Assembly: GCA_947625255.1 (NCBI GenBank) | Contig: CANQNT010000006.1 | Span: forward strand, 80,963 to 144,962 | Length of the DNA stretch: 64,000 bases | From: an uncultured Acetatifactor sp. | GTDB lineage: Bacteria > Bacillota > Clostridia > Lachnospirales > Lachnospiraceae | Direction: 5' to 3' | Part shown: piece after piece, positions 13,081-64,000 of the stretch | How the letters are laid out: the number at the start of each line of letters is the position of its first letter | How positions within the stretch are numbered: position 1 is the stretch's first letter | The notes under the pieces: model-generated | The model's input: the letters and a program-made list of their open reading frames with translations, nothing else | Database searches by the model: none | Told to the model about the DNA's origin: nothing | Made by a program: the position numbers and the translations under genes

Positions 13081-13107
13081 GACTTTTTTCCGGTTCTTGT
13101 GTATAAT
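13079..13107 (+). promoter_or_regulatory. Sigma-A-type promoter of the thioesterase gene
   Basis: TTGACT (13079-13084) and a perfect TATAAT (13102-13107) are separated by 17 bp, directly after the htrA terminator. Confidence 0.75.
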
Positions 13108-13224
13108 ATCTTTCAATGAGAACCGCGCGCAACAAAAACTTGGACGAAGTCATTGCGGATGATGACGGGTTTGGGTCATGGATGCGGAAGATCCTCGCTG
13201 CGGAAGAATGATGGGGGAAAAGTG

Positions 13225-14294: not shown

Positions 14295-14370
14295 GGCGAA
14301 CCCCGGTCTGAGTTATTTTACTTTTACTATATTCTGAGGGATAAAAAATGGTGAGGGAGAAACGAAAGAT

Positions 14371-35363: not shown

Positions 35364-35924
35364 ATGAAGAGTCTAAAACTGATAGGACAAAGCGGATTCG
35401 CTTTGATTGAGATGTTGGTTGTAATTGCGATAATTGCAATTCTTGTCGCGGTGTCAATCCCTGCGGTAAATAATGCACTTGAAAAAGCAAGAATTGCCGC
35501 TGATACAGCCAATGAAAGAGCGGCGAAAGCTGCTGCCGCAATTCAATATTATAGTGATGAGGTGGACTGGGATAAGGATTCTGATTTAAATGTTGATACG
35601 GCAATTTATTATTATGACGCGGAAAATGGTACATTGGTTCCTATGTGGGATACTGTTGTAAGAAAAGATGGCAGTCTGCCGATAGCGTCAAAGCCGGAAG
35701 GATATGGAAAATGTTCGCGTCATAAGGGAAAATGCATTGTAGTTGAGGTTAAAAAAGATGGAAAAATAAAAATTTCCTGGGAGTGGGATGATGAGAATCC
35801 GCCTCATGACTTTCCCACGCCTCATCTCGTCCAAACCTTGGCAGGCTGCGCCTCGGTAGTGGGACAGCGGAAAAGCAGGGTGCGGAGCGCTTTCCAGTTA
35901 AAGGGAAAGAGGGGCCAGAAGTAG
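35364..35924 (+). CDS. Type IV pilin-like protein with antisense C-terminal overlap
   Basis: A 186-residue protein with a class III (prepilin) signal: a short basic leader, then G-F-A-L-I-E and the hydrophobic helix MLVVIAIIAILVAVSIPAV. Cleavage would fall after Gly11, and the +5 Glu is present. The globular part is acidic and includes CSRHKGKC. The last 35 codons, from 35822, are antisense to the SpoVAF-like gene, and their product (GCASVVGQRKSRVRSAFQ) does not look like pilin sequence, so the original 3' end was probably lost in a rearrangement. No pilus assembly genes are nearby. Confidence 0.7.
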   Translation: MKSLKLIGQSGFALIEMLVVIAIIAILVAVSIPAVNNALEKARIAADTANERAAKAAAAIQYYSDEVDWDKDSDLNVDTAIYYYDAENGTLVPMWDTVVRKDGSLPIASKPEGYGKCSRHKGKCIVVEVKKDGKIKISWEWDDENPPHDFPTPHLVQTLAGCASVVGQRKSRVRSAFQLKGKRGQK

Positions 35925-40875: not shown

Positions 40876-40948
<73 letters not shown>

Positions 40949-40952
40949 TTAT

Positions 40953-41023
40953 GCGGGTGTAGTTCAATGGTAGAACACCAGCCTTCCAAGCTGGATACGT
41001 GGGTTCGATTCCCATCACCCGCT
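40953..41023 (+). tRNA. tRNA-Gly (UCC)
   Basis: The acceptor arms GCGGGTG (40953-40959) and CACCCGC (41016-41022) pair fully, with discriminator T41023. The anticodon stem CCAGC/GCTGG encloses CTTCCAA, giving anticodon TCC. It lies four bases after tRNA-Phe, so both belong to one transcript. Confidence 0.97.
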
Positions 41024-42149: not shown

Positions 42150-42210
42150 CTTGATGTTTTCAAAGGAATTTGTCGTCGGAAAAAGACATTTTTTCCAGGA
42201 GGAAATGGTT

Positions 42211-45200
42211 ATGAGAGGAGTTAAAACAAACGGATTCATACGCAAATTCATGGCGATTCTGCTGTGCTTGTGCATGCTCACTTCTATGGTCAGCAGCGTC
42301 GGAACGATATCGGCGCGTGCGACAGAAGGGACGTCGACTGGGGCGTCTGCCGGCTATACGGAGGACATTTTGCCTGGCAGCCGTGTGGCCGATCCTACCA
42401 CCATGGACGACTACAGAAACAGGCTATTGAATACGACGAATGGTTCCAGATACGCCGGACGTGTCTGGACGGATAAAACTGTGTTTGCCTATGACGCTGA
42501 TGCAGGTAAGGGAGGCACGGAAGCTACGGAAGGCACGGGAAGCGCGAAAAAAAATTACATTCCGCTTGATATGTCTACAGACGGCTATGATGGATCTGTG
42601 GGCTTCAATTCCGACTTCGCTCATGTTTTTAGCGCCCTGGCCAGTTCACAGGTGGTCAACGAGTATCCGCCCAGCCCTGTAGACCTGGTGATCGTGTTCG
42701 ATATGTCAGGATCTATGGGACAGGATACCAGGTATGGGATTGATGCGGGGGGAAATGCATATGTGGAGCATAACTCAAACGGTGATAATGCGAGCAATCC
42801 ATGGCCTGGGACTGGTGTACCCATGTCTGAGCGTATCCAATATTCCAGGATTCAGGTTACCTTGGAGGCTATCAATCAGACCATTGACACTCTGATGGCC
42901 CAGAATCCGCAGAACCGGGTAGCGGTATGTGGTTATGGGGCTAATGCCGTGGTGCTTATGCCTTTGGGTCATTATATGCGGAACGGGGGTGCACCTTACC
43001 TTTCTGTGGGCGGTATGGAGACCTTATACCATCCTAGTGACTTGGTGTATAGGGAGCCTAGCGATGGTCTTACTAGTACCCTTGGCGCTGTCACGACAGC
43101 GGACTGGTACTGGATGAACAACCGTGATACCTGTTACACCGTGGTCGTAAACGCGAAGATGAACAATTATACAGATTCTGCTTTGGATTCTGATGGAAGT
43201 GGAAAAACTCATGGATCTGAATACGCTTGGCAAGTGGTAAACAAGACCGTCAGCAATAACATAAAAAGTGATGGAGTAAAAGCATTCCCGGGTGCTTGGA
43301 ATACAGACGGAAAAACGCCTGAAGGCACTTATGGAGAAGCGAGTCGGACAGTATATTCTGGAAGCAAGTCAACATCATATTCTCCCGGAAGTGATGAACT
43401 GATAAACGCTATGAACCCTACCGTGGAACTTAATGCTGACGATTATGTGGGCTATTTCACCAATACCCAAGGAGGCATCTACCTGGCCTATAAGCAGTTG
43501 GCGGATTCACAGGCTACTACCTATTCAGAACGACTTTCTAATGGTGTCATGTCCACCGTGGCGCGAATCCCGGCAGCTATCATCATGTCCGATGGTGGGG
43601 CCAACTTCGCGTTCAATGAAATGGGACCAGATACTGGAGATTACACGGTAGATGATTGGAATAGCCGTTACGGACAAAAAACGGCGGGCGGTACCAGGGG
43701 ACCGGATGTGGAAGGTTACGAGAGTAACCCGGACGATTGGTATATGAACGATAATAGCTGGGATGCTGCTGCCTGGATTGATGAAAAAGACCATGTTGGT
43801 TCTGAAGGCCACAATAAGGATTACTCGCATCGTCTTAACGAAAATATTGGAGATGAGTGGTACAATGTCTATCTTCCTGGAGATGACACGCTCAAGCCAG
43901 GAGGACAACAATATGACGAGGGTAAATATTATACTTCTGGTCCAGGTGGTAGCTGGGATGGTTTGCATGGTATGTACAACACCGGTGCAGACTATTATCA
44001 AGATGGTACCCTGACTACCGCTCCGGCCTGGAATCATGCGGGGGTATTGTACAGTAGTGATAGTGATCTGTCTGGAACGGGCGGTACTATAATGGAGGTG
44101 TTGCTCACTGCCTCCTATATGAATCAAGTAGTGAAAAAACACTACGAGTACGGGTGGCAATCCAAGAATGCTACCATGGACAGTAGGGTTCCTCTTTCTA
44201 CCTACACAATGAATGTGGACACAGAACACGTGCCTCAGTGGGGACGTTGGAGGCTTTTCCCGACTCTTGACCCGAAAGAATACGCTCTTGACGACATTGG
44301 CAACACTGACAGCACCGGTTGGGGGGCCGCGGAACCCAAAGAAAAAGATAAAAAACTTGCAGAAACGTATAACGGAAATACTTGGGGTTCAGGAGGCGTG
44401 TATATTGGTGCTGGTGCCTTTACAAGTTTGAAAACTTCTTGGGAAACATGGAAAAATGGCACTCCCTCCCCAGTTTCTTTTTCAATGGGAGGCAACGGTA
44501 GTATTAGGATAAATATCAACCGGCTTGAAGAGAGCGGCCATACCTATACCGCCGGCGGCGGTGATACGGTCACGGTCACCAATCAGGATGTCATTGACAA
44601 CATCGCTTATAACGATCAGTTTTACGACGTGACCTCCACCAATCTAAATAATATTTTTGATGAGATTTTGGATTTAATCTTAGGAAAAGTATTCGTACCC
44701 GTTTCCGGCGACAATGACGCGGGCGTGGGAGATTCCATTACATATCAGGATCCCCTGGGCGAGTATATGGAGATTAAGAACCAATCCATCATGGCAACGC
44801 CTTTGCATACAAATGGGGATCTTGTGAATGTGAGTGAGACTACCTATGATATGGCCCTGCTTCTCTTTGGCGAGATGCATGGCCTGGTTCGCACGGGCGT
44901 GTATGATTATCACTGGAATAATACCTATATGTCCGAGAACACAACAAAAGAGGGATATATTGGTCCGGAACTGACTGCTGGCATAGACGCCTTGCCTATC
45001 GGTTGGTATCTGGGAGATCCCCAAAATGCGAAATATTCCTATGTGAATGGTCTGCCTGCTGGATATACTTCTGCTGAAAAAGCCTGGGCGGACGGATGGG
45101 TACTTCGAATCAATTATAAAACACTGGCAGAGTATGTGCCCATCGTGGGTATAAATGAGAATACGATGCCTACCGAAGTCCCTGATCAGATCAAAAATGT

Positions 45201-48200
45201 AGTTTATACCGTGTACCGTTTCTCCTGTAATCAGGAGGATCGCAATACTCTGCGCCGTAACCCCATTTTCGGGGCGGTGCCTAGGGATCTGCAGGAACAG
45301 TGGAGTGATACTTACACAAAAAATGGTGGATATCCGGATACTAATGAAATGTACAGAGACACGCCGGGTGTGTATCGCCTTTCCGATATCCGTGTTTGGG
45401 TAGAGGATTCCGGCGACTATGTGGATGAGACGGGTGCCATTGCCCCCGAGAGCGGTTATGATCGGTCCCTATACCTGAATATTCCGGCGGCGGCCGTGCC
45501 CACCGAACTTGCTACGATTACTCTCGGTAAAGACGGCGTTCTCTCCTACAAGACGAACTTGGGCAGCGACCATCTTGAAGGGTCCTCAGACACGGATGCA
45601 GATGGAAATTCCATAACCGTTAGTAAGGAAATGCATAAAAATTATTGCTACCAGTCCACCCCTCTGCGGCTCTTTTATGCCGTGGGCCTGGAAGATGATC
45701 TGATTCTTCGGGATGAGGATGGCAAACAGAAAGGCGTGGATATTGCTGCTCTTTCAGAGGAATACGTGGCAGCTCATACCGACGAGAATAACAACATTTG
45801 GTTTATCTCCAATTATTATTCAAATACAAGATATGACAACTATGCAACAGATGAAACTGCCTATACCCAGGGCGACCCGACGGTGACTTTCTCCCCCAGT
45901 CAGGATAACCGTTACTATGTGTTCCAGAAACCCCTGCCCCTTTATGCCCATGCCTATCGTTTGAAACCTGGTAGCGACGGGGATATTGCGCCTGTTGACA
46001 ATCAAACGGGCACGTTCTGGTCAGGGGACAAAAGCGGCAATGGCAATAAAGATATCATCTGGGAAACGACAAAGGATCAAGCGGGAAATGATGTTCAGCA
46101 GCAGCCCGGTTCGTGGATCGGCGGTACATACATGGGTGTGTATAAGAGCGCTGATGCTTTCAAAAATGCCTACAAGACTGCTAAGGATAATGGCGGAACA
46201 CTTACAGACAGCCTTGGTGCTCAATATCCGTTGGTGGAAGATGGCATTGTGTTCCTGGCGGATGATCTGTTGGAACATGTGACCACTGATCCCGAAGATG
46301 AGAGCAAATATGCGGAAGGTTCCATTTCGTTCTCCTCTGACGATTACTTCTTCATCCTTGTGGAGTATTATTTGCCGAATGGAGAGATTGGCAAAGACAA
46401 TAATAACAAAGAAGTTCCCGGCACGACCGGAGGACATTTGGTTCAGCATGTTGCGGCCCGTAAAGGCAGTGAGTTCGGTTCCGGTTTTCATTCGGAACAG
46501 ATCGATAACGGCAGTATGCTTTGCTGGACGGATACCAATAGTCATCTGAACCTTGAGATCGACTACCTCTCTCGTTCTGTCACTGGCGACGATACCAGAG
46601 GCGAGCCGACATTCGAGAAGCTGACGTATCAAGATGAGGATTTAAGGACCTACTTAGAGGGACTTGGTATTAAAGAAGAGCTTATAGACAAACAGGTAGA
46701 ATACTGGGAAAACTTGCAGGCTAATCCTCTTGTCAAGACTGCCTTAAATGCTGCGAAAACTAACGAAAGCGACTCGCTGAGTAAATACGAATTTGAAAAA
46801 TATTTCAAATTCGCCGTTGCCGCACGCCCCGGCGGGATCCGTACCGGCGACATGGCCAACAACCGACAACCCAAAACCCAAAACGTTACAGGAACCGCGT
46901 ACAGTTACTATCTTCCTACGGTATCCAGCAATTCCGGTACCGATGACAACGTGGTTATCAATAATTACCTGGGCAACAACGGCATCTTGAAAGTGGCGAA
47001 CCAGAGTCTGTTGGTTACGAAGCTATTTGAAGCGCCGGAAGGCTTCATGCTCACGCCAAGCCAGAAGGAAGAATCGTTCTTGTATCAGTTGTTTGTGGAG
47101 GATCTTGTTGGAGATGTGAATGCCACGATGGTACACTACAATCCGTTCTCCGGCACCTGGCAGCGACAGCTGGCTTATATCGACGTACTCACTGATAATA
47201 GCAGTCTGTTGCTGGACAGCAGCAGTCAGCGCGCGCTGTTTGCCAGAGAAGTTAACGGTGAGGGAACGACTATTGGAGCCAGACAGGTAGTGGCCGTGAC
47301 AGAAGATGGCAAAACGGTATACTACTTTGCCAATGAGGACGGCACGGCCAGCAAAGAATCTTTTGATGGAACTGCCCTTTATTATCTCTACCTGCCATCC
47401 AACAGAACGGAGGAAAATGCAGAAAATCTGGTTCGTCGACTATATCAGGACCCTGCCTATAGCGATGGGGCGGAATATGATACGAACAAAAATTCCTTGA
47501 CTATCTATTGCAAGGAAACGTCGGGTCTGAAAGATACGGATAACATCAACTATAACGAAGTAACCGAGAATCGACCTGCTGGTACTTTTGCCTACTGGGC
47601 CCAGGATGCGGAACTGATTCCCGTTAACGTGGTGAAATATGCTGAAGAAAAGGGCAGTGAGGGATCGGAAGCTGCTGGCGGTTCATCTTGGCAGCATGAT
47701 CGCGATGGCACAGAAGCACATTATGGGCTGGGATATTTCACTCTCGTGGTCAGCAAACCGTTGAATGCCACCAGCGAGAACGCCATCTCGTCTCCGTTCA
47801 GTACCCGTACCATGTACATGACGAAGACGCTGACTTTCGGTAAGAACGCGGCGGAGAACTCCGGGGATCATGGGGACGGCAGTGAGTCAGGTACGTCACT
47901 TACAGAAAATGACCTTTACGACAAGATCATCCCTAAGGCGGACCGGCCGGATTTTAATGATTCCAAATACACAGCAGACTATATCGCTAAGCACACCGCC
48001 GAGTTTGCTTTGAAGAGTGGAGAGGGTCTGTTGCTGACGGGACTGCAGGATCGGATCGATTACCGTTTCACAGAGAAGCTCACGCAGGAGCAGATGGAAA
48101 AGGGTTATGTCTTAAAAGAGGTTGAGCATATCCAGCAGATCGGAAGCTCAAGCGTATATCGTCCTGGTACACAGCAGATTCCCGTGTATACCAAAGAAGG

Positions 48201-51200
48201 GGCGACCTATGGCACAAGCTATCCCGCGTCTGAGTCTGGCAAGAAGACCCAGAATAACCTTACTTGGAAGTACAATGCGGACAAATCGGTGAATACGGAC
48301 GCGACGGTACAGTATGAGCCGTTTAACCACACCAACGCTATTATGTGGGAATCCTATGCCACCATGGGAGCAGGTCAGTTGGGCAACCATCATCATCCGG
48401 AGGATAGTCTTGATGAAACCGCGGACTTTTATGATGGGGATACGAATACGGGAATAAAACAAACCGTGCAGATCAATCCCAGCTGTGCCACATGTGATGT
48501 GAAGCAGGAGGACGACAGTATCATTCACTATATTTACAGGGACGGTGAACTCGTCGATCCTCATTATGAGGGCGAATGGTCTGCATACCTGCGGGATGCT
48601 TACCGTTACATAGTGGGACCTACCGTCCACTTCGGCATGGATGGTGAAACACAAGCGGATGCGAACGCAGGTCAGAGTCTGCCCGCAAAAACCTTTGAGA
48701 AATCTAACGGCGTCTATTCCGTATTCGGCAATACCGGATACTTTGAGGAGCAGGCTCATTTCATCAATACCTACGAACCCCTGCCTTCTGAAAAGACGGA
48801 GACTACTCCTGGTGACGGCGAATTGGTGGGAGTCGGCGATTCTATCACGTATGAGATTCATTGGGAGAACTACTCTGATGAAAAAGAACATATCATCGTG
48901 ATGGATACGCTGGATCCGGGCGTGACTTTCATAAGCAGCACTGGTAATTATACAAAGGACGCCACTGGTCAGCCCGATGTTTCGGTGACTGGAGACGGAG
49001 AGGATCCCGCTACTGGACAATATTTCAAAGAGTCGGGAATCTATACTTATGAAATGGAATGCATCTTGGACGATGGTACTAGGGGCACCAAAAAAGAGCA
49101 GCTTGATGTTCCTGCCCACACAGTGGTTTGGGATTTGAAGACTCAGGCTGCCCTGACAGACGGCTATGTAAGTTTGACCGTTCAGGTTAATGAAAATGCA
49201 CGCCTTGATTACAGTTACAATGAGGAAGCAACAGGCTTTGTGTCTGACAAGGATGAATCCGGCAATCCCAAAAACGATTACGAGGTATTCAATCAGGCTC
49301 GTGTCAAGGTAGGAAATAACTCGTTCCTTAAGACCGAAATCGTGGAGAACCCGGTGCCCGACAAGACGGAGAGTACCCCTGGCGACGGAAAACTGGTGGG
49401 TCTGGGAGAAGAGATCACCTATAAGATACACTGGGAGAACTCTCACGACAAAAAAGCGGACGTGATCATTACCGATCCCCTGGATCCTGGTGTGGACTTC
49501 GTGTCCGCGTCCTTTGACGGCGTGACGCTTCCCGCTGCGGCTGACGGGGAAAGTACGTGGATTGACAACGTGGGCATTGGAAGCGACACGGGAGACGATT
49601 TCGTGGTGGCCGACGGGAACGGCCAGATAAAGATTAGCATCGCGTATGACAAGGACAGTCACACGGTGACCTGGACCTTTACCGCCCAGGCCCTGGCAAA
49701 CACCGAACCTGACAAAAGCGGCGTGTTTGTGGGCGACGTGGAGTTGAAGGTCAGAGTCAATGAAAACGCGGTGAAGAAATGGAGTTATGGTTTCGGCGAC
49801 ACCCCCGATGTGGACGACACCAAGGATTACGAGGTTCAGAACCGTGCCAAGGTGGAAGTGGACAACAAGTCAGTTTACACGGAGATCGTGGAAAACCCGG
49901 TGCCCGAGAAGACGGAGAGTGATCCCGGGGACGGTGAGATCGTGGGAATCGGGGACCAGATCACCTATCAGATTGGTTGGGCCAATACCAAGGACCAGCC
50001 CGCCACCGTGGTGATTACCGATCCCTTGGATCCGGGTGTGGACTTTGTCTCCGCGTCTTATAAGGGTGTGACGCTTTACGCGGCCACCGTGGGCGGCCAC
50101 GTGGATTCCGGGGACGGTGATTCGGCTGTCGGAAAGCTTCTGACAATTGAAATCGACTACGATGATGCTGACAAGCATATCGTGACCTGGACGCTCCGCA
50201 ACGTGGAAGCGGGCAGCACGGGAACCGTGGAACTAAAGGTCAGTGTCAACAAAAATGCGATGAAGAGTTGGAGCTATGGAGATTCAAATGGCTCGACCCC
50301 GGATACACCGATCGAGAATGATACCATCAAAGATTACGAGGTTCAGAACCGCGCCAAGGTGGAGGTGGACAACAAGCCGGTTTACACGGAGATCGTGGAG
50401 AACCCGGTGCCCGAGAAGACAGAAAGTGATCCCGGGGACGGTGAGATCGTGGGAATCGGGGACGAGATCACCTATCAGATCGATTGGGCCAATACCAAGG
50501 ACCAGCCCGCCACCGTTGTGATTACCGATCCCTTGGATCCGGGAGTGGACTTTGTCTCCGCGTTCTATGGTGGTGGTGCTAGTGGCATTACACTTAACGC
50601 GGACTCTGAAAGTGGCCACGTGGATTCCGGGGACGGCGACGTGCTTACCGATACGTCTCCATCGATCGAAATCGACTACGATGCCGGCAAGCATACCGTG
50701 ACCTGGACGCTCCGCAACGTGGAAGAGAACAGCAAGGGAACCGTGAAATTAACGGTCAGAGTCAATGAAAACGCTGTGAAGGACTGGCACTATGGCTCCG
50801 GCGACGATCTCGTTGCGGGTACCGACAAGGATTACAAGGTTCAGAACCGCGCCAAGGTCCAAATAGACGACCGTTCGGAGTATACCGATATCGTGGAGAA
50901 CCCGGTGCCCGAGAAGACGGAAAGTGATCCCGGGGACGGTGAGATTGTGGGAATCGGGGACCAGATCACTTATCAGATTGATTGGGCCAATACCAAGGAC
51001 CAGCCCGCCACCGTGGTGATCACCGATCCCTTGGATCCGGGCGTGGACTTTGTCTCCGCGTCCTTTGGCGGTGGCATTAGTGACATTACGCTTAATGCGG
51101 ACACCCCGGACGGCCATGTGGATTCCGGGGACGGCGATTCGGCTGCCGAAACGCCTCCGACGCTTGAGATCAGCTACGACCCCACCACACATACCGTGAC

Positions 51201-57200: not shown

Positions 57201-60200
57201 GGTGGAGGTCAACGAGAACGCGGTGAAGAGCTGGAGCTACGGAACCGGCGATGAAATCTCAGAAAGCGACGGCACCAAGGATTACGAGGTACGGAACCGC
57301 GCCAAGGTGACAGTGGGTAACCACTCCGATTACACCAACGAGGTGGAGAATCCCGTCCCTGAAAAGACGGAGCCCAACCCCGGCGACGGCAAGCCCACGG
57401 GCGTCGGAAAGGAGATTACCTATGAGATCGGCTGGGCCAATACCAATAACCAGTCGGCCATGGTGATCATTACCGATCCCCTGGACGTTGGCGTGGACTT
57501 CGTGTCCGCCGAGTATCTCACAACGACGCTGGATGCAGCGAAGCTGGATACGGAGTCGCAGACGGGCAAGGCCGGCTGGGTTCCGGACGAGGTCAACGGG
57601 GAAATAGATCCCGATGACCCGGAACATCCCAACGAAAAGGGATATTACACGATCACCTATAGTAACCATACCGTCGTATGGAAGTTCAATGCGGCGGCCC
57701 ATTCATCCGGCGTTGTGAAGCTGACGGTGCGGGTCAATGAAAATGCCGCCGTGGAATGGACCTACGAGGAGAACGAGAACCAGGGCAAGACCGGCACGGG
57801 CAAGGATTATGAGGTTGTAAACCGTGCGGAAGTAAAAGTGGGCAACAATCACGTTTACACGGACATCGTGGAGAACCCCGTCCCTGAGAAGAGCGAAACG
57901 CCCGTCACGGGAGGCCCTGAGGAAGGCGACCTTGTCGGAGTGGGCGATCAGATCACCTACACCGTTCACTGGTCCAATGACAAGAACAAGGAGGCCTCCG
58001 TCAAGGTGACCGACCAGCTCGACAAGGGAGTGGACTTTGTGTCCGCGTCCTATGGCGGAGTGACGCTTACCAGCGACGACGAGGACCTTGCGATCACGAA
58101 AGACGGAATCACGATCCGCTATACCAAGGACGCGCAGGGCTGCAAGACGGTGGAATGGGATCTGGGAACCAGAGAGGCCGGCGACGCGGGCGAAGTGACC
58201 CTGGTCGTCCGGGTGAACGAGGATGCCGTGAAGACCTGGAGTTATGGGGATCTGAACAGCGCGGACCCGGATGTGCCGGTCGTGAAGGACGAAAGCAAGG
58301 ATCATAAGGTTTGGAACCGCGCCAAGGTGACCGTGGACAATGAGTCCGGCTATACCAACGACGTGGAGAATCCCGTTCCTGACAAGGAGGAAACCGTTCC
58401 CGGAGAAGGGAACCTGGTGGGCGTGGGCGACACGATCACCTATGAGATTTACTGGGAGAACGACAAGGACAAGAAAGCTCAGGTAGTCGTCAGCGATCCG
58501 CTGGACATCGGCGTGGACTTTGTGTCCGCGACCTATGACGGAGTGACCCTGAATGGTTCGGACGGGAAAGAGGGTTCCGCCTCGGACGATGGGAAGGGAA
58601 TCACCGTCAGCTATACCGGCGACGACGCGGGACGCCTTGTGACCTGGAGCTTCAGCGCGGACCCGGGCACCCACGGCACGGTGACGCTGGTCGTAAGGGT
58701 CAACCGCAGCGCGGTTAAGGAGTGGACGTATGACCCCGCCGACAGCGTGGGCAATACGGAAGTGGCCGGAGGCGCGACGGGCACAGGCAAGGATTACGAG
58801 GTCCGCAACCGCGCCAAGGTGGAGGTGGACCATCACGCCGCCTATACCGCGGAGGTGGAGAATCCGGTGCCTGAAAAGAAAGAGGTTGAGAATGCTCCCG
58901 GCGCAGGCAAGATCGTAAAGGTCGGCGACGAGATCACCTATGAGATCCGCTGGACCAACGGACATGAATATGAGGCCCGGGTAGTCATTCTGGATACGCT
59001 GGATCCCGGCGTGGATTATGTGGATGCGACCGATAATGGCGTTTATTATGAGAACGGCACGACCCTGTCCTATGGCGAGGGAGAGAACGCCCGCCAGATT
59101 GAGGTTCCCAAGCGCACGGTCGTATGGGATCTGGGCGTACAGGCGGCGGGCGCCAGCGGCGTGGTGACATTGAAAGTAAAGGTCAACGCCAGCGCCAAGG
59201 CAAACAGCAAGGTGGAGAACGACGCGTCCGTCACCGTGGGCAACGACGCCGCCGTCATGACGGAAAAGGTCGACAATCCTACCGGGCCCAGCAAGACGGA
59301 ACGCCGTGTGAACGGAGAGGATGTACAAGACAAGCTGGAAAAACGTGAAGATGGCTACGATGGCCCTCGTGTGAATGTGAACGACACGATCACCTATGAG
59401 ATCACTTGGGTAAATAATGCGTCCAACGAGGACGGGGAGCTTGTGGCGGCCCATGTGGTTGTGCGGGATCCCCTGGATGAGGGCGTGGACTTTGTAGATG
59501 CCGATGAGGGAGGAACGTACAGCAGAAACGAACACATGGTGACCTGGGATCTGGGCGTACAGCCTGCCGGAGCCACCGGCAAGGTGACGCTTAACGTCAA
59601 GGTCAATGAGAAAGCGCACCAGCATTGGCAGTACGTGCCGGACGAATCGGACCATACAAGCGATTCGGCGCATAGTGACAGCGAGGTGGTCAACCGCGCG
59701 GAGGTAGGAGTGAAAGTGGAGAATCAGCCTGAGATCCTCACCTACACGGAAACCATCCATAACCCGCTTCTCGGAAACCTGAGCATTGAAAAGACCGTGA
59801 CGGGCGAGGGAGCGGACGTGACGAAGGAGTTTACCTTCCAGATCACTCTTAAGGATTCGTATGGAAAAGAGCTGGAGCAGGAGTTTGCCTACACCTATGA
59901 CGGCGACGCCGATGATTCCAGGAGCGGAAAGATTAAGAGCGGCGAAACGATCAAGTTAAAGGCCGGTGAAAAAGTCACCATCGCGGACATTCCCGCGGGA
60001 ACCCGGTACGCGGTCGAGGAATTGGAGGCGAACAAGAACGGCTATATTACGACCATGACCGGAGAAGAGGGCGTGATCGAAACCAATGCCGCCGTCAAGG
60101 CTTCGTTTGTCAACGCCAGGGGCGTTGGCGGGCTGAACATCAGCAAGACCGTGACGGGCGAGGAGAATTCCGATCAGGAGTTCCATTTCCTGCTGCACTT

Positions 60201-63200
60201 CGAAGGAACCTTTAACACAAGCGGGCTCACCCTTACAAAGAACAAAAAGGATGGCACGGAGTCTCTGACGATGGCCGGAAGCGACCTGGAGTTCACGCTG
60301 AAAGACGGAGAAGCCCTGAGTGTGCAGGGAATTCCGACGGGTACCAAATATACCGTCAGCGAGACAAAACGCGCCGACTACTTTACAAGCGCCAGCACCG
60401 GCCTTGGAAACGGTCCTATGAGCGACGCGGCGAACGAGTCGGCGGATGACGGACTGTATTCCGTAACCGGTGAAATCCTGGAGGGCAAAGAAAATACCGC
60501 CATGGTGAAGTACACTAATAAGTGGCTGCCCGACAACTACAAGGAGGAAACGGCGCCCGGCGAGGGACAGATGGTCGCCGTGGGTGACAAACTTCAGTTT
60601 ACGGTTACCTGGCGGAACGACCAATACAAAGAGGCGTTGGTCGTGGTGACGGACCAGCTGGATGCCGGGGTGGACTTCGTGTCCGCGCGCTTTGGAACGA
60701 ACGAAAATGAAGTGACCCTGAGCGCCGACGACGTGAAAGTCGGAAAGAACAGCGCGACAAAGAACGGAATTACGATTCGGTATGAGAACCATACCGTGAC
60801 CTGGGAACTTGGTATGCGCGAGGCCGGAGAGACCGGAAGCGTGGAACTGGAGGTCAGCGTGAACGGAAGCGCCGTCCAAAGCTGGGAGTACGGCAGTGAA
60901 GACGGGCCGGAAGCGGATATACCGAATGTAAAAGACGAGGAAAAGGATTACAGAGTCCGAAACCGCGCCAAGGTGACCGTGGACAATGAATCTGATTATA
61001 CCAACACCGTGGAGAACCCGGTGCCTGAAAAGGAGGAAACGACGCCCGGCGAGAACAAGCTTGTGGGAGTGGGCGACGAGATCACCTATGAGATCCACTG
61101 GACCAATGGTCATAAGGAAGCGGCTTACGTGGTTGTCCTGGATACGCTGGATCCCGGCCTGGATTATCTGGAAGAGGATGCGGCCAACACGGGCGTGTAT
61201 TACAAGGATGGCGGAACCCTGACCTATGGCGAGGGAGAAAACACGCATCAGATCCAGGTGCCCGCGCGCACAGTCGTGTGGAATCTGGGCGTACAGGCGG
61301 CAGACGCTGACGGCGTGGTGACCTTGAAGGTGCGTGTCAATGCCGATGCCAAGGCAAAGGGCAAGGTGGAGAACGACGCGTCCGTCACCGTGGGTAACGA
61401 TCCCGCCGTCATGACGGAAAAGGTCGTGAATCCTACCGGCCCCAGCAAGACGGAAACCAAGGTCGGAGACACGGATGTCAGGGGCAAGCTTACGGACTCC
61501 AACGTCGGCCCCGAGGTAAAGGTGGGCGATAGCATCACCTATGAGATCACCTGGGTAAATGACGCGGTGAATGAGGACGGGGAACTGGTTCCCGCGGTAA
61601 TCACCGTGCGCGACCCGCTTGACGCAGGCGTGGATTTTGCTTCCGCCAGCTTCGGAACGGGCGAGGACCAGGTACTCCTGCAAACCGAAGACTTAGAGAG
61701 CGGCAGGAACCAGGTGACGAAGAACGGAATCACGATTCGATATAACGGCCGGACGGATGGCCATACCGTGATCTGGGAACTGGGAGAGCAGCCCGCCGGA
61801 GCGTCGGGGACTGTGACCCTGGTGGTAAAGGTCAATCCGGACGCGTACCATTTCTGGCAGTATGGCAAGGGCGACGACCGGGTGACCAGCGACGTACTGG
61901 ATGACAACGAGGTGGTCGACAGGGCCGAAGTGGGAGTAAAGGTAGGAAATCAGCCCGAAGTGACGACCTATACGGATGTCATTCACAATCCTCTCGGAAC
62001 CGGGAACCTGGAAATCATCAAGACGGTGACCGGAAGCAGTGGAGAAATGGAGAGAGAGTTTACTTTCGTTGTGGAGCTGACGGACGAGGACGGCAATCCT
62101 CGGACGGAGGTGTTCAATTATACCTTGTCGGACGGCGACGTCCCCGGAGATAACGGGAGCGATACCGGCACCATTACCAGCGGCGGAACCGTCAGACTCA
62201 AAGACGGCCAGAGCGTGATTATCCGCGACATCCCCGTGGGAACGAGGTATAAGGTTACGGAGCTTGAGGCAGGACAGGATCACTACACGACCACCGTTAC
62301 GGGAGGAATCGGGGTGATCGGAGAGGGAAGCCTTGTGACGGCGGCTTTCACCAACCACCGTGCGGGATCCGCTTTCGTAAGCCTGGATCTGACCAAGAGA
62401 CTGGTGGATGCCAATGACGGAGGATACGCCTTGGAGGCCGGAATGTTCTCATTCCTGGTATCCCCCGCGGACGACAATCCTGCCGGCGATCCGGTTAGCG
62501 CGGCGTTCCGCGTGAAAAACGGCGAAAGCGCCGACGGAGAAACCGCGGGAGCGACCATCCTGGATCAGGCGGAATACCGCCTGGCGGGCACCTATCGTTA
62601 CACGGTGCGCGAGGAGATCCCCGCGTCCGGCATGACCGGCATGAAATTTGACCCGAAGGTCTACACGGTGACGGTCACCGTTACCGGAACGGAAGAGGAA
62701 GACCTGACGGCAGCCGTAAGCATTACGGACGGGGACGGAAGAACGGCGGACGAGATCCTGTTTACCAATGTGTTTACCACCGACGCCAGCGTCAACCTGC
62801 AGGCCCAGAAGGAGCTGAAAGGCGGAACGCTGAAAGAAGGTGAATTCAGCTTCGAGCTGCAGGGAGTGTCCGCGAAATACGAGGTGTCCGGCGGAGATGC
62901 GTCCGGCGGCGACGTAAGCGGCGGAGATGTTACCGGCGGCGAAGTATCCGACAACAATGTAACCGGCGGCGAAGTATCCGATGGCAACGGAGCCGACGGC
63001 AAGGGATCCGGCAGCAACGGAGCCGGCAGCAACGTATCCGGCAACAACGGAACCGGCGGCAAGGAATCCGGCGGCAACGGAACCGGCGGCAAGGAATCCG
63101 GCGGCGACGGAACCGGCGGCAAGGAATCCGGCGGAAACGGAACCGGCGGTAAGGAATTCGGCGGCAACGGAACCGGCAGCAAGGCGGCCGCGGGCGGAGC

Positions 63201-64000
63201 CCTGCTGGGAAGCCTGGTCGGCACGAACAGAAGCGTTGGGGATTATTTGGAAACGGCGGCCGTGGCCGGATTGCTGAAAGGAATTCTGGACGGCGGGACG
63301 CCTCCGATGCCGGCGGGCGGAACGGTTCGCACGAACGGGGCGGATGGGCATGTGGACTTCGGTTCCATTACTTATACTCATCCCGGAACCTATGTATATC
63401 GGATCACTGAGAAAAACGACGGTCGGCCGGGAGTGATCTATGACGGCACGGTTTATACGGTAACCGTCGTAGTGACCCGCAATACCGATACCGGCCTGCT
63501 GGAGACCGCCGTGACCTACGGCGGCGGAAGCTCGGCGGACGTTGCAAGGTTCGTTAATGAAGTCTCGGTCGGCGGTCTGACCGTCGCCAAGACGGTCAGT
63601 GGTACGGCGGGCGAGCGTACGAAGGATTTCTCCTTCGTGGTAACGCTCACCGGAGACAACGGAGAGATTCTGACCGGAATAAGCGGTCAGTACGGCGAGA
63701 TGACCTTTGACAAGGGTTTGGCATCCTTTACCTTGAGAGACGGCCAGAGTCTGACGGCGTCCGGTCTGCCCGCGGGCGCGCATTACGAGGTCGTTGAAGC
63801 GGAGGCTGACCGAAACGGATACACAACCAGCGTCACGGGCGAGGAAAATGGAACGATTCAAAAAGATACGAAAGCGCCAATTGTGTTCCATAATCATAAG
63901 GACGGCGAGAAACCGGAACCTGAAACGGGCAGCCTGACGGTGACTAAGACGGTGACGGGCAGCGCGGGAGAGAAAGACAAAGAGTTCCACTTCCGCGTGG
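42211..64000 (+). CDS. Giant secreted VWA / isopeptide-repeat surface protein (partial, open at the window edge)
   Basis: The frame opens at ATG 42211, with AGGAGG at 42197-42202, and I find no in-frame stop to 64000: 7,263 codons so far. Residues 1-36 are a signal peptide (basic start, hydrophobic MAILLCLCMLTSMVSSV, SARA cleavage region). A VWA domain follows, with MIDAS motif DMSGSMG at 164-170. Residues up to about 2190 are non-repetitive extracellular sequence; 2191 to about 6596 hold some 24 D2/isopeptide-type repeats interrupted by pilin-type domains; pilin-like domains and a Gly-rich insert follow. The architecture suggests a sortase-anchored adhesin or stalk, but the wall-sorting end is outside the window. 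Function is inferred only. Confidence 0.9.
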   Translation, partial: MRGVKTNGFIRKFMAILLCLCMLTSMVSSVGTISARATEGTSTGASAGYTEDILPGSRVADPTTMDDYRNRLLNTTNGSRYAGRVWTDKTVFAYDADAGKGGTEATEGTGSAKKNYIPLDMSTDGYDGSVGFNSDFAHVFSALASSQVVNEYPPSPVDLVIVFDMSGSMGQDTRYGIDAGGNAYVEHNSNGDNASNPWPGTGVPMSERIQYSRIQVTLEAINQTIDTLMAQNPQNRVAVCGYGANAVVLMPLGHYMRNGGAPYLSVGGMETLYHPSDLVYREPSDGLTSTLGAVTTADWYWMNNRDTCYTVVVNAKMNNYTDSALDSDGSGKTHGSEYAWQVVNKTVSNNIKSDGVKAFPGAWNTDGKTPEGTYGEASRTVYSGSKSTSYSPGSDELINAMNPTVELNADDYVGYFTNTQGGIYLAYKQLADSQATTYSERLSNGVMSTVARIPAAIIMSDGGANFAFNEMGPDTGDYTVDDWNSRYGQKTAGGTRGPDVEGYESNPDDWYMNDNSWDAAAWIDEKDHVGSEGHNKDYSHRLNENIGDEWYNVYLPGDDTLKPGGQQYDEGKYYTSGPGGSWDGLHGMYNTGADYYQDGTLTTAPAWNHAGVLYSSDSDLSGTGGTIMEVLLTASYMNQVVKKHYEYGWQSKNATMDSRVPLSTYTMNVDTEHVPQWGRWRLFPTLDPKEYALDDIGNTDSTGWGAAEPKEKDKKLAETYNGNTWGSGGVYIGAGAFTSLKTSWETWKNGTPSPVSFSMGGNGSIRININRLEESGHTYTAGGGDTVTVTNQDVIDNIAYNDQFYDVTSTNLNNIFDEILDLILGKVFVPVSGDNDAGVGDSITYQDPLGEYMEIKNQSIMATPLHTNGDLVNVSETTYDMALLLFGEMHGLVRTGVYDYHWNNTYMSENTTKEGYIGPELTAGIDALPIGWYLGDPQNAKYSYVNGLPAGYTSAEKAWADGWVLRINYKTLAEYVPIVGINENTMPTEVPDQIKNVVYTVYRFSCNQEDRNTLRRNPIFGAVPRDLQEQWSDTYTKNGGYPDTNEMYRDTPGVYRLSDIRVWVEDSGDYVDETGAIAPESGYDRSLYLNIPAAAVPTELATITLGKDGVLSYKTNLGSDHLEGSSDTDADGNSITVSKEMHKNYCYQSTPLRLFYAVGLEDDLILRDEDGKQKGVDIAALSEEYVAAHTDENNNIWFISNYYSNTRYDNYATDETAYTQGDPTVTFSPSQDNRYYVFQKPLPLYAHAYRLKPGSDGDIAPVDNQTGTFWSGDKSGNGNKDIIWETTKDQAGNDVQQQPGSWIGGTYMGVYKSADAFKNAYKTAKDNGGTLTDSLGAQYPLVEDGIVFLADDLLEHVTTDPEDESKYAEGSISFSSDDYFFILVEYYLPNGEIGKDNNNKEVPGTTGGHLVQHVAARKGSEFGSGFHSEQIDNGSMLCWTDTNSHLNLEIDYLSRSVTGDDTRGEPTFEKLTYQDEDLRTYLEGLGIKEELIDKQVEYWENLQANPLVKTALNAAKTNESDSLSKYEFEKYFKFAVAARPGGIRTGDMANNRQPKTQNVTGTAYSYYLPTVSSNSGTDDNVVINNYLGNNGILKVANQSLLVTKLFEAPEGFMLTPSQKEESFLYQLFVEDLVGDVNATMVHYNPFSGTWQRQLAYIDVLTDNSSLLLDSSSQRALFAREVNGEGTTIGARQVVAVTEDGKTVYYFANEDGTASKESFDGTALYYLYLPSNRTEENAENLVRRLYQDPAYSDGAEYDTNKNSLTIYCKETSGLKDTDNINYNEVTENRPAGTFAYWAQDAELIPVNVVKYAEEKGSEGSEAAGGSSWQHDRDGTEAHYGLGYFTLVVSKPLNATSENAISSPFSTRTMYMTKTLTFGKNAAENSGDHGDGSESGTSLTENDLYDKIIPKADRPDFNDSKYTADYIAKHTAEFALKSGEGLLLTGLQDRIDYRFTEKLTQEQMEKGYVLKEVEHIQQIGSSSVYRPGTQQIPVYTKEGATYGTSYPASESGKKTQNNLTWKYNADKSVNTDATVQYEPFNHTNAIMWESYATMGAGQLGNHHHPEDSLDETADFYDGDTNTGIKQTVQINPSCATCDVKQEDDSIIHYIYRDGELVDPHYEGEWSAYLRDAYRYIVGPTVHFGMDGETQADANAGQSLPAKTFEKSNGVYSVFGNTGYFEEQAHFINTYEPLPSEKTETTPGDGELVGVGDSITYEIHWENYSDEKEHIIVMDTLDPGVTFISSTGNYTKDATGQPDVSVTGDGEDPATGQYFKESGIYTYEMECILDDGTRGTKKEQLDVPAHTVVWDLKTQAALTDGYVSLTVQVNENARLDYSYNEEATGFVSDKDESGNPKNDYEVFNQARVKVGNNSFLKTEIVENPVPDKTESTPGDGKLVGLGEEITYKIHWENSHDKKADVIITDPLDPGVDFVSASFDGVTLPAAADGESTWIDNVGIGSDTGDDFVVADGNGQIKISIAYDKDSHTVTWTFTAQALANTEPDKSGVFVGDVELKVRVNENAVKKWSYGFGDTPDVDDTKDYEVQNRAKVEVDNKSVYTEIVENPVPEKTESDPGDGEIVGIGDQITYQIGWANTKDQPATVVITDPLDPGVDFVSASYKGVTLYAATVGGHVDSGDGDSAVGKLLTIEIDYDDADKHIVTWTLRNVEAGSTGTVELKVSVNKNAMKSWSYGDSNGSTPDTPIENDTIKDYEVQNRAKVEVDNKPVYTEIVENPVPEKTESDPGDGEIVGIGDEITYQIDWANTKDQPATVVITDPLDPGVDFVSAFYGGGASGITLNADSESGHVDSGDGDVLTDTSPSIEIDYDAGKHTVTWTLRNVEENSKGTVKLTVRVNENAVKDWHYGSGDDLVAGTDKDYKVQNRAKVQIDDRSEYTDIVENPVPEKTESDPGDGEIVGIGDQITYQIDWANTKDQPATVVITDPLDPGVDFVSASFGGGISDITLNADTPDGHVDSGDGDSAAETPPTLEISYDPTTHTVTWTLRNVGAGSTGTVELTVRVNENAVKSWNSGDDPVVDNNSKDYEVQNRAQVKVDDNSAYTEIVENPVPEKTESDPGDGDLVGVGDEITYKIHWENPHDQKAAVTITDPLDWGVDFVSASLGNVTLTAAADGGSVQVDGVSVGNGPENGFVEADGNGQKNISITYDKNSHTVTWTFTASALANTEPDGSGVFVGDVELKVKVNESAIETWKYHDSDNKDHPEGYPGTGKDYEVVNRALVQVGNDAAYTNEVENPIPEKTESTPGDGSLVGVGDEIAYKVHWENLHEEKTVVTITDPLDQGVDFVSASLGEVTLPAAADGGSTGIEGDAAIASIEGDVTILYDKDSHAVTWIFTADALANTKPDSDGTFAADVELKVKVNENAARTWTYGDTADKTQPGGNYGEGEDYEVVNRALVQVGDNAAYTDEVENPVPGKTEEKPGDGEVVGVGDEITYKVHWENTNDEEADVTITDPLDDGVDFLSASLGSVFLTAGHAGGTRTGAPGGSEPVIGDVTITYAGHVVTWTFRAEPHSSGDVTLEVKVNERAAKDWKYNETTDSGQSGTGRDFKVLNRAGVKVNDKSVYTAVVENPVPEKEEVDPGDGFMVGLGDKITYKVHWENLHDQKAVVTITDPLDKGVDFVSASFDGVTLTAAADGGSTRIDSTGIGNGAEDALVEADGNGQRKISIAYDKESHTVTWTFTARALANTVPDGDAYAGDVELIVSVNENAFAAWNYGSTADKTRPEGKDGFGKDYEVRNRALVQVGNNAAYTDEVENPVPEKREITPGSGKLVEVGDTINYEIHWTNGHDEAATVVVTDALDQGVDFVSASYESVTLSKDENAENKKTGEGVTITYAGHVVTWTFQAEPNSSGDVALVVRVNENAKPEGVVKNQAGVKVGNDFEVKTQIIPNPTGPTKTETKVNDKDLTDKDVTVSPEGGYQGPEVKVGDTVTYRITWVNSAEENGELVPATVTVRDPLDEGVDFESAIFTEKNGVKLELGANEPDDDKDGILSKEQGSAAIVYDKNTRTVTWTLQDREPGETGTVELTVRVNQNAYYEWTYGEGNTPDTPTSSDKRDDQIVDRASVRVGNNPWIYTETIHNPLETGSLKIKKVVAEEVAEPAEGGDETDTDPKFTFQIDLKAKNWDDTMTSLRGTLTYTVYNSDGTVKKGPVTFDADESVEVQLAQDEYVLFDNLPIVTEYTVSEEWTDDYHLGSVTIDGKPVECDAAKNSYSVSGSIEAEAEVAVEYKNKKLDLNQKTETDPGEDHQVTVGDQITYQINWSNDQHAAANVKVTDYLDKGVDFVSASFGGTTLTADAAGGSVSTGDGDLTIGKPSTFTISYDAENRTVTWDLGQRPDGAHGTVTLTVVVNENAVKSWSYGTDDVPEEDDGSKDYEVQNRAKIEVGNHSEYTNVVENPVPEKEEVAPGDSELVGVGDTIDYQISWANTKDQTAEVVVIDPLDQGVDFVSASLGDTTLTADAAGGSVSISDGGDLTVGKLPTFTISYDAENHVVTWRLLKVEANSTGTVKLTVRVNENAVRTWTYDDKENQGDYSDGKDYEVVNRARVRVDNDSVYTEIVENPVPGKEEVTPGDGVLVGLGDEISYKIHWENIHERKAVVTITDPLDKGVDFVSASLGSVTLNAADDGGSVRIDSVGIGNGEKDFFVEPDGNGQRKISIVYDKDSHTVTWTFTARALANTEPDGSGLFPDDAGLTVRVNENAARTWEYGDTTDKTKPEGKSGEGVDYEVVNRALVKVGDHAAFTEEVENPVPEKTEKTPGEGKAVGVGEEITYDIHWTNGHDEEAKVTVTDPLDQGVDFAEASYGSVELSVQKDAQGKAVDGSATGTFQYDDGTTANVTITYSAANHTVTWEIDEAPAKAEGDVSLKVAVNEKAKTAGGVENQAGVQVGNDAQVETRIIPNPTPGKTETDPGEDRQVKVGDRITYQITWSNQREANAAVKVTDRLDKGVTFVSADNNGQYDEENHTVTWDLGIQPKGAHGTVTLTVEVNENAVKSWSYGTGDEISESDGTKDYEVRNRAKVTVGNHSDYTNEVENPVPEKTEPNPGDGKPTGVGKEITYEIGWANTNNQSAMVIITDPLDVGVDFVSAEYLTTTLDAAKLDTESQTGKAGWVPDEVNGEIDPDDPEHPNEKGYYTITYSNHTVVWKFNAAAHSSGVVKLTVRVNENAAVEWTYEENENQGKTGTGKDYEVVNRAEVKVGNNHVYTDIVENPVPEKSETPVTGGPEEGDLVGVGDQITYTVHWSNDKNKEASVKVTDQLDKGVDFVSASYGGVTLTSDDEDLAITKDGITIRYTKDAQGCKTVEWDLGTREAGDAGEVTLVVRVNEDAVKTWSYGDLNSADPDVPVVKDESKDHKVWNRAKVTVDNESGYTNDVENPVPDKEETVPGEGNLVGVGDTITYEIYWENDKDKKAQVVVSDPLDIGVDFVSATYDGVTLNGSDGKEGSASDDGKGITVSYTGDDAGRLVTWSFSADPGTHGTVTLVVRVNRSAVKEWTYDPADSVGNTEVAGGATGTGKDYEVRNRAKVEVDHHAAYTAEVENPVPEKKEVENAPGAGKIVKVGDEITYEIRWTNGHEYEARVVILDTLDPGVDYVDATDNGVYYENGTTLSYGEGENARQIEVPKRTVVWDLGVQAAGASGVVTLKVKVNASAKANSKVENDASVTVGNDAAVMTEKVDNPTGPSKTERRVNGEDVQDKLEKREDGYDGPRVNVNDTITYEITWVNNASNEDGELVAAHVVVRDPLDEGVDFVDADEGGTYSRNEHMVTWDLGVQPAGATGKVTLNVKVNEKAHQHWQYVPDESDHTSDSAHSDSEVVNRAEVGVKVENQPEILTYTETIHNPLLGNLSIEKTVTGEGADVTKEFTFQITLKDSYGKELEQEFAYTYDGDADDSRSGKIKSGETIKLKAGEKVTIADIPAGTRYAVEELEANKNGYITTMTGEEGVIETNAAVKASFVNARGVGGLNISKTVTGEENSDQEFHFLLHFEGTFNTSGLTLTKNKKDGTESLTMAGSDLEFTLKDGEALSVQGIPTGTKYTVSETKRADYFTSASTGLGNGPMSDAANESADDGLYSVTGEILEGKENTAMVKYTNKWLPDNYKEETAPGEGQMVAVGDKLQFTVTWRNDQYKEALVVVTDQLDAGVDFVSARFGTNENEVTLSADDVKVGKNSATKNGITIRYENHTVTWELGMREAGETGSVELEVSVNGSAVQSWEYGSEDGPEADIPNVKDEEKDYRVRNRAKVTVDNESDYTNTVENPVPEKEETTPGENKLVGVGDEITYEIHWTNGHKEAAYVVVLDTLDPGLDYLEEDAANTGVYYKDGGTLTYGEGENTHQIQVPARTVVWNLGVQAADADGVVTLKVRVNADAKAKGKVENDASVTVGNDPAVMTEKVVNPTGPSKTETKVGDTDVRGKLTDSNVGPEVKVGDSITYEITWVNDAVNEDGELVPAVITVRDPLDAGVDFASASFGTGEDQVLLQTEDLESGRNQVTKNGITIRYNGRTDGHTVIWELGEQPAGASGTVTLVVKVNPDAYHFWQYGKGDDRVTSDVLDDNEVVDRAEVGVKVGNQPEVTTYTDVIHNPLGTGNLEIIKTVTGSSGEMEREFTFVVELTDEDGNPRTEVFNYTLSDGDVPGDNGSDTGTITSGGTVRLKDGQSVIIRDIPVGTRYKVTELEAGQDHYTTTVTGGIGVIGEGSLVTAAFTNHRAGSAFVSLDLTKRLVDANDGGYALEAGMFSFLVSPADDNPAGDPVSAAFRVKNGESADGETAGATILDQAEYRLAGTYRYTVREEIPASGMTGMKFDPKVYTVTVTVTGTEEEDLTAAVSITDGDGRTADEILFTNVFTTDASVNLQAQKELKGGTLKEGEFSFELQGVSAKYEVSGGDASGGDVSGGDVTGGEVSDNNVTGGEVSDGNGADGKGSGSNGAGSNVSGNNGTGGKESGGNGTGGKESGGDGTGGKESGGNGTGGKEFGGNGTGSKAAAGGALLGSLVGTNRSVGDYLETAAVAGLLKGILDGGTPPMPAGGTVRTNGADGHVDFGSITYTHPGTYVYRITEKNDGRPGVIYDGTVYTVTVVVTRNTDTGLLETAVTYGGGSSADVARFVNEVSVGGLTVAKTVSGTAGERTKDFSFVVTLTGDNGEILTGISGQYGEMTFDKGLASFTLRDGQSLTASGLPAGAHYEVVEAEADRNGYTTSVTGEENGTIQKDTKAPIVFHNHKDGEKPEPETGSLTVTKTVTGSAGEKDKEFHFRV
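42673..44700 (+). other. VWA-type domain region of the giant protein
   Basis: The first strand with the metal site is PVDLVIVFDMSGSMG (Asp164, Ser166, Ser168). A later strand with the matching acidic turn is IPAAIIMSDGGANFAF near residue 457. The gap of about 290 residues is much longer than in a compact VWA fold, so a large insertion, rich in Asn, Tyr and Gly, sits inside it. The domain probably ends with the helix LNNIFDEILDLILGK (about 811-826). Confidence 0.75.
54493..54954 (+). other. First interspersed pilin-type (Cna-B-like) domain
   Basis: After IHNPLETG the sequence changes to SLKIKKVVAEE...FTFQIDLKAKNWDD, with TEYTVSEEWTDDYHLG near the end. This is the pattern of Cna-B/SpaA-like pilin domains. 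It closes the first super-block of repeats. Confidence 0.7.
59776..60525 (+). other. Two adjacent pilin-type domains
   Basis: LSIEKTVTGEGADVTKEFTF and LNISKTVTGEENSDQEFHF open two successive domains of about 120 residues, each with a GTRYAVEE- or GTKYTVSE-like element. They close the second super-block. Confidence 0.7.
62002..64000 (+). other. C-terminal run of pilin-type domains (continues past the window)
   Basis: Domains start at about 62002 (LEIIKTVTGSSGEMEREFTF), 62371 (VSLDLTKRLVDANDGGYAL, FctA/Spy0128-like with YRLAGTYRYTVREEIP), 62782 (VNLQAQKELKGGTLKEGEFS, interrupted by the Gly-rich insert and resuming as YTHPGTYVYRITEKND), 63571 (LTVAKTVSGTAGERTKDFSF) and 63931 (LTVTKTVTGSAGEKDKEFHF). 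These are the kind of domains found near the wall-anchored end of Gram-positive pilins. Confidence 0.75.
62887..63186 (+). repeat. Gly-rich tandem repeat inside a pilin-type domain
   Basis: About 100 residues of decapeptide-like units: first SGGDxSGGDV types, then at least four near-identical 30-bp units encoding GTGGKESGGN (about 63049-63180). The array stays in frame and interrupts the domain that starts at 62782, and a non-repetitive, Ala/Leu-rich stretch (AAAGGALLGSLVG...) follows. Confidence 0.9.

Follow-up and report, generated by a model that had tools for sequence, protein, structure and literature searches.

The length of a usual pilus arises from the sortase-catalysed polymerisation of pilin subunits, and in several pilus tips (RrgA and PitA, also PilB and SpaC) a CnaA-like domain is split by an inserted VWA domain. 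This arrangement has also been tabulated for GBS104, with the Lys before and the Asp after the insert (PMC12617251), and pili and single-polypeptide adhesins have been presented side by side in a review as the same three-module machine (PMC7616799). The subject of this report is a giant gene that runs to the end of a 64,000-base stretch of DNA from an uncultured Acetatifactor sp. (G000:C6:80963-144962; "the window" hereafter means this whole stretch). On the basis of the open frame, the family of its N-terminal head, 24 repeats with conserved Lys, Asp and Asn, interleaved pilin domains and a sorting signal on an overlapping contig, the gene is predicted, with a probability of roughly 0.75, to encode a giant fibrillar adhesin working as a single-chain pilus, with a VWA tip and a CLIPPER/CnaB stalk in one reading frame.

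Several described systems resemble parts of this protein. The giant adhesin of Mobiluncus mulieris (7,651 residues, with an LPxTG anchor and 51 Ig-like repeats that each belong to internally cross-linked domain types) is likewise a cross-linked single chain of similar size, which its authors presume to have grown by domain duplication and recombination (PMC10619420). It is built, however, of ester-bond and Spy0128-type isopeptide domains with a putative thioester adhesion domain (PMC10619420), whereas the present giant combines 24 CLIPPER repeats with a VWA head that has relatives in pilus operons. Fibrillar adhesins with CLIPPER (DUF11) domains share the tandem stalk, signal peptide, adhesive head, sorting signal and Lys/Asp/Asn triad; the survey in question is, in the sections considered here, a description of domain families, and no head common to pili and giants was found in them (PMC12617251). 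DUF11 is also counted among the domains of huge proteins (PMC11573180). The VWA tip adhesins GBS104, RrgA and PitA share the split-CnaA/VWA head, and three head-only relatives of the giant (loci L063, L116 and L130) lie beside class C sortases; the giant differs from these tips in having its own stalk, a PKTGD signal and no pilus operon, and its VWA scores below the Pfam cut-off. Apilactobacillus kunkeei carries several surface giants of 3,000-8,000 residues per genome (Giant1-5), diversified largely by intragenic recombination, but these have beta-solenoid heads and other stalks and belong to lactic acid bacteria (PMC12863079). Among public proteins, a Bilifractor "Spy0128 family protein" (P0084) is a CLIPPER giant of 7,101 residues with a VKTGD end and no match to the present head at E 1e-10; none of four CLIPPER proteins of 7,071-7,264 residues in other records has this head. 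Single-chain giants with cross-linked domains are thus already known; what would be new is a head family used in both modes, of which a literature search found no account.

The Open Frame and its Continuation

The window ends together with contig C6 (144,962 bases), and from the ATG at 42211 onward it is a single open frame without a stop or an N, whose product, as far as the window goes, has a computed mass of 783.6 kDa and a pI of 4.4. The earlier note had recognised this frame, its good ribosome site and a signal peptide; the frame and the ribosome site are confirmed, and the first ~37 residues look, by eye, like a signal peptide. It had also advised seeking the stop beyond the contig, where it now appears: the last 77 bases of C6 have their sole other exact copy in the genome near the start of contig C32, in frame, and C32 contributes another 254 codons, with a TPKTGD sorting signal ahead of the stop. 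This part encodes two DUF7601 domains, the first of which supplies the rest of the domain interrupted at the end of C6, and its C-terminal sequence is TPKTGDSGSLGTWFALLAAS...RRTRGNGKRSGR. The two parts sum to a product of at least 7,517 residues and about 810.5 kDa.

Assembly graphs with k=77 leave exact 77-base overlaps at branch points. The first 77 bases of C32 reappear within that contig 336 bases further on, and the break between C6 and C32 is ascribed to a near-identical tandem DUF7601 unit of 336 bases whose copy number the assembly does not fix. The minus strand, too, has long open frames beneath the repeat array (window 52648-57183 and 57703-61683; at most 1,511 codons), which probably just reflect codon usage in the repeats.

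The Head

The metal-ion-dependent adhesion site (MIDAS) that the earlier note had placed in a VWA domain is supported by 23 aligned heads, in which DxSxS (D164, S166, S168) and T417 hardly vary and D461 does not vary at all, the roles of these residues being assigned by eye. The Lys predicted to form the isopeptide bond of the split CnaA-like domain is kept in all 20 aligned rows with a letter at that position (three have gaps) and the predicted catalytic Asp in 23 of 23; the VWA is inserted between them in the manner of a VWA tip pilin. At the other end of the head, the CnaB-like domain has K1604, E1955 and N2186 invariant across 20 heads. The fold model matches the VWA tip adhesins PitA, RrgA and GBS104, weakly in Foldseek and clearly in VIA-align. 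A sequence search of the Protein Data Bank (PDB) with the head gave no match up to E 0.1.

The head also contains large inserted regions without a recognised fold, which could be taken to mean that it is an enzyme or a delivered payload with the stalk as its delivery arm. This is extremely improbable, as no enzyme family emerged when the head was scanned with Pfam and NCBIfam profiles (E 0.01) and its observed structural similarities are to VWA and pilin domains, though parts of the head were barely tested, namely its middle (residues ~1130-1590), which was modelled only within the two half models.

Stalk and Tail

The two dozen putative isopeptide repeats of the earlier note number exactly 24, and their alignment retains the triad almost throughout: Lys in 24/24, Asp (the first residue of a TDPLD motif) in 24/24 and Asn (within a VxNxA motif) in 22/24, repeats 11 and 24 having Asp in place of this Asn. 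The CLIPPER profile PF01345 is over its cut-off in two pieces of the array (144.3 and 205.7 bits vs 24.6), as is TIGR01451 in the array. The sole PDB match of the repeat profile is 9IFR, a CLIPPER structure with a resolved Lys-Asp-Asn isopeptide bond (PMC12617251); the repeat Asp aligns with an Asp of that structure taken as Asp 748 under an assumed numbering offset.

At least nine CnaB-type pilin domains stand behind or among the repeats. DUF7601 domains start at residues 4100, 5855, 5973, 6598, 7121 and 7240 (cut), and two FctA-type domains lie between residues 6727 and 7118. Pilin-type domains had been expected after the repeats; they are present there, but DUF7601 is interleaved with the repeats and not solely behind them. 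An alignment of five DUF7601 rows from the window and two from C32 has, by eye, Lys, Glu and Asn of the CnaB kind in 7/7. In total, 33 stalk and tail domains are predicted to be self-locked (24 CLIPPER, seven DUF7601 and two FctA). The features are collected in Table 1.

Table 1. Features of the giant gene in window coordinates, with the basis of each assignment.
Feature	Position	Strand	Basis
Giant gene, 7,263 codons in window + 254 codons on C32	42211..64000	+	contig-end-open frame
Ribosome site AGGAGG, 8 bases 5' of ATG	42197..42202	+	sequence
Signal peptide, ~37 residues	42211..42321	+	by eye, predicted
Head, residues 44-2190, conserved among relatives	42340..48780	+	homologue searches, alignments
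Lys 89, predicted isopeptide Lys of split CnaA-like domain, before VWA insert	42475..42477	+	alignment
VWA domain with large inserts, residues ~151-828	42661..44694	+	sub-cut-off Pfam, alignment, fold model
Asp 847, predicted catalytic Asp of split CnaA-like domain, after VWA insert	44749..44751	+	alignment
CnaB-like pilin domain with large insert, residues 1595-2190	46993..48780	+	alignment, fold model
Stalk: 24 CLIPPER (DUF11) repeats, residues 2195-6594, DUF7601 interleaved	48793..61992	+	profiles, alignment
~2,041 bases identical to C27a stalk, ends within 2 bases	51607..53649	+	DNA comparison
DUF7601 (CnaB-like), residues 4100-4248	54508..54954	+	profile, alignment
Two DUF7601 domains, residues 5855-6105	59773..60525	+	profile, alignment
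DUF7601, residues 6598-6719	62002..62367	+	profile, alignment
FctA (Spy0128-like), best stretch residues 6727-6855	62389..62775	+	Pfam, two stretches
Gly/Ser-rich stretch within second FctA-type domain, approximate ends	62896..63180	+	sequence
TIGR03786 streptococcal pilin isopeptide linkage, end of second FctA-type domain	63358..63564	+	NCBIfam
DUF7601, residues 7121-7232	63571..63906	+	profile, alignment
Final 77 bases of C6, identical to C32:38-114, no other genome copy	63924..64000	+	exact match
Further DUF7601, cut by contig end	from 63928	+	profile, alignment

Anchoring and Sortases

By its sequence and predicted fold, the giant unites in one chain what characterises a fibrillar adhesin, namely a signal peptide, a predicted adhesive domain, a stalk of repeats and a wall anchor. 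Its sorting signal TPKTGD, whose assignment rests on the 77-base overlap with C32, resembles the peptide PVPPKTGDS, and class B-like sortases are encoded in this genome (on C2, C5 and C8) and beside two relatives of the giant. Peptides of the form (S/P)PXTG, PVPPKTGDS among them, are substrates of Clostridioides difficile SrtB (PMC4155245), a specificity with which processing of a TPKTGD end by a class B sortase would agree. The genome has five sortase matches (one Pfam family, E up to 0.001), two on C73 and one each on C2, C5 and C8. Of the anchoring predicted by the earlier note the sorting signal was thus found, on the contig that overlaps the gene end, while the sortase genes expected nearby were not: neither C6 nor C32 has a match in that search.

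It is very unlikely that an ordinary sortase-C pilus incorporates the product as a subunit, i.e., as a very long tip or shaft pilin polymerised onto other pilins. Head relatives do occur at three loci with class C sortases, and a class C pilus operon is present on C73 of the same genome. The giant itself has neither an LPxTG-type motif nor a class C sortase operon: its motif is TPKTGD and not LPxxGG, the window part of the product has no YPK/YPR motif, no separate shaft pilin was seen near it (Pfam on four upstream genes; frame lists by eye), and two of its stalked relatives adjoin class B sortases.

The operon on C73 (L008) is separate from the giant and comprises a 2,165-residue LPDSG protein, a signal-peptidase-like gene (by eye), an LPHTGG backbone, a class C sortase, an LPQTG pilin and a sortase-like protein. 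The LPDSG protein has no match to the head queries.

Two Apparent Delivery Modes of the Head Family

Relatives of the head seem, from their gene contexts, to be delivered in two modes, as part of a sortase-C pilus operon or on a stalked single-gene giant. The first is exemplified by L063, a pilus operon with all genes on one strand that encodes a 2,272-residue head with an LPFTGG end, a backbone-pilin-like protein (717 residues, LPFTGG; over the cut-off of TIGR04226 but under that of NF033902), two class C sortases that exceed their cut-off, an LPQTG protein of 310 residues and a sortase-like protein; at L116 and L130, a gene for the head alone shares its strand with class C sortases. The second is exemplified by L115 and L126, in which a gene for head and stalk with a TPKTGD end is directly followed by a class B sortase over cut-off. 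In a search with four query sortases over flanks of unequal length, loci of the LPxxG type had a class C sortase in 3/8 cases and class B in 0/8, and those of the xPxTG type class B in 2/10 and class C in 0/10.

The stalk follows the same division. CLIPPER repeats are found in 0/31 rows of the LPxxG type and 14/29 of the xPxTG type (Fisher p 4.5e-6, relatedness ignored), and median lengths are 2,262 residues (32 rows, before one was dropped) and 3,510 residues, respectively. These figures come from 104 rows, no two of them identical over the final 150 residues, among which near-copies remain; 61 have a motif according to our own regular expressions and 43, mostly with cut ends, do not. In the LPxxG class the P may be preceded by L, I, V, M, A or P, and the xPxTG class includes PPQTND, PPTGI, PPTGN, SPQTGV, SPNTGA and TPNTGS. 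L061, with an open end and an internal motif, was dropped from the 32 LPxxG rows; the present giant and a sister giant, C27b, both split over contigs, are omitted, and the sister C27a is included. The sample of head relatives is shaped by the length limits of the searches.

A tree of 42 heads (14 labelled stalk, nine tip and 19 unlabelled because of a cut end) was built from rows of unequal extracted length before trimming, rows with 450 or fewer matched residues being left out; labels were taken from the end motif, that of L136 by eye only. Its starred branches force at least four changes of label, a number as low as this arising in 3 of 500 shuffles. We regard the chances as even that one tip-adhesin head has been traded between polymerised sortase-C pili (LPxxGG) and single-gene giants (CLIPPER/CnaB stalk, PxTGD, class B sortase), with motif, sortase class and stalk switching as a set several times, and with three giants of diverged heads exchanging stalk DNA within one genome.

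Sister Giants and Possible Stalk Exchange

Contig C27 of the same genome carries two sister giants, the complete C27a (6,532 residues, APKTGD end) and C27b (~7,015 residues, VPKTGD), the latter at a contig end that overlaps the start of C8 by exactly 77 bases. In the head tree, this genome's three VWA heads are scattered over as many separate positions. A fourth giant, on C16 (L035, L036), has 3,896 residues, a CLIPPER stalk, a PETGD signal and a different N-terminal part with no match to the head queries. The heads encoded on C6 and C27a have no DNA match at 80% identity or more. Their stalks match over 4,383 bases at 93.8%, and within this match lies a tract of 2,041 identical bases, the result either of a recent stalk-to-stalk exchange or of ambiguity in the assembly.

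Four genes (L032:891-1907, L034:4888-5838, L035:12226-11204, L055:14830-15771) encode a protein that has zinc-ribbon-like repeats and ends in an AP2-like part. Of the four giants in this genome whose ends are known, three are immediately followed by such a gene, as is the head gene of L055, which belongs to a set of nine relatives with listed downstream genes. The protein has no Pfam or NCBIfam match, and the naming is our own reading of its sequence.

Weighing of the Evidence

A number of results weigh against a single-chain pilus or against the exchange of its head. The search of the N-terminal part against domain databases proposed in the earlier note did return VWA, but under the Pfam cut-offs (PF13519, 20.7 vs 27 bits; PF00092, 18.3 vs 23.8); the models of both head halves are mediocre (mean pLDDT 70 and 69), and neither half has a Foldseek match at E 0.001 or better. 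As to anchoring, besides the lack of a sortase match on C6 and C32, the NCBIfam cut-off is exceeded by only one of the genome's three class B sortases, that of C8, and the anchor profile PF00746 is silent at the ends of all the giants, matching only C73, twice. The three tips with a class C sortase all belong to one clade of the head tree. The public protein P0026 equals the first 2,839 residues of the giant, then goes out of frame and stops after 11 more, showing that a truncated version exists in some assembly. The identical tract shared with C27a cannot be phased by k=77 contigs, and the alternative pairing across it would, by arithmetic, give products of ~6,635 and 7,414 residues.

This truncated version, the identical tract and the contig ends caused by repeats (with the 336-base unit of unfixed copy number at the start of C32) could together indicate an assembly artefact, with the head of one locus wrongly fused to the stalk of another, or a decaying gene that most cells carry in broken form; in either case no giant protein would be produced. 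Such an origin is unlikely: the window part of the frame has no stop over 7,263 codons and its 24 repeats retain Lys and Asp, either pairing across the tract yields products of more than 6,500 residues, complete frames with 6,532 (C27a) and 6,448 residues (P0079, another record) exist, and the four CLIPPER proteins of other records reach comparable size, albeit without this head. The reading of the gene as a giant single-chain adhesin is preferred.

Distribution and Genomic Neighbourhood

The distribution of the head is patchy. It was found in 9/397 sampled genomes of the family and 12/391 of the class (own genome included in both), in 0/2 same-genus genomes of the family sample, and in 6/38 and 5/21 genomes sampled from the families of G446 and G470, respectively; heads are recognisable across more than 2,000 residues in genomes of several families. 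A scan of genome_contigs, which finds close relatives only and may omit the window's own record, gave 19 loci with the head, assigned to Clostridia, Oscillospiraceae, Lachnospiraceae, Eisenbergiella and Eubacteriaceae, and all 19 bear rabbit metagenome titles ("Lapin", French for rabbit). This genome likely comes from rabbit gut as well. One 26,056-codon frame with the head was rejected as an artefact, its contig being mostly masked and read as N. The head gene of L129 occurs as two overlapping frames of 2,066 and 696 codons (6402-12599 and 12556-14643, minus strand) and is a broken or mis-assembled relative.

Upstream of the giant, genes for tRNA-Phe and tRNA-Gly lie at window 40876-41023, 1.2 kb before its start; tRNA genes are a common place for acquired genes. 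Apart from these two tRNAs, five sources yielded no Rfam match at the gathering score. The upstream DNA is not richer in promoter-like sites than its shuffles, and terminator-like sites number 5 vs 1.5 in shuffles. A pseudopilin-like gene with an N-terminal methylation motif (window 35364-35924) resembles, by eye, one in a C8 cluster next to a class B sortase.

Proposed Mode of Action and Significance

The giant would be exported by the Sec pathway, after which isopeptide bonds would form by themselves in two domains of the head and some 33 of the stalk and tail, giving a rod of ~150 nm (our estimate, at 4-5 nm per domain) that may resist pulling and gut proteases. A class B sortase would cut after TPKT and attach the protein covalently to the cell wall, and the VWA face with its inserts may bind, in a metal-dependent manner, a glycan or protein of mucus, plant material or a neighbouring cell. 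The length of such a fibre would be fixed in the gene and would grow by duplication and exchange of stalk repeats. The occurrence of head relatives in class C sortase operons lends support to the term single-chain pilus, already used in the earlier note; binding and cross-links are predicted.

The same fibre could instead have the sister cell as its target and serve in aggregation, biofilm cohesion or the masking of other adhesins rather than in attachment to host or food. Such roles have been proposed for long stalked proteins (PMC10619420; SasG, PMC9210967), and three giants with diverged heads in one genome would agree with them, but a shared external ligand fits the conservation of heads over 2,000 or more residues in several families at least equally; a sister-cell target is possible, if somewhat doubtful.

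If the giant works as a single-chain pilus, pili and single-polypeptide adhesins, two textbook kinds of appendage, would be linked by a common head, and the reasons why bacteria choose one or the other could be compared with the head held nearly constant. The head family would also provide a natural series of stalk lengths, from 0 to 24 or more CLIPPER domains, and a large source of predicted self-cross-linking domains, with possible recent exchange of stalks between giant genes.
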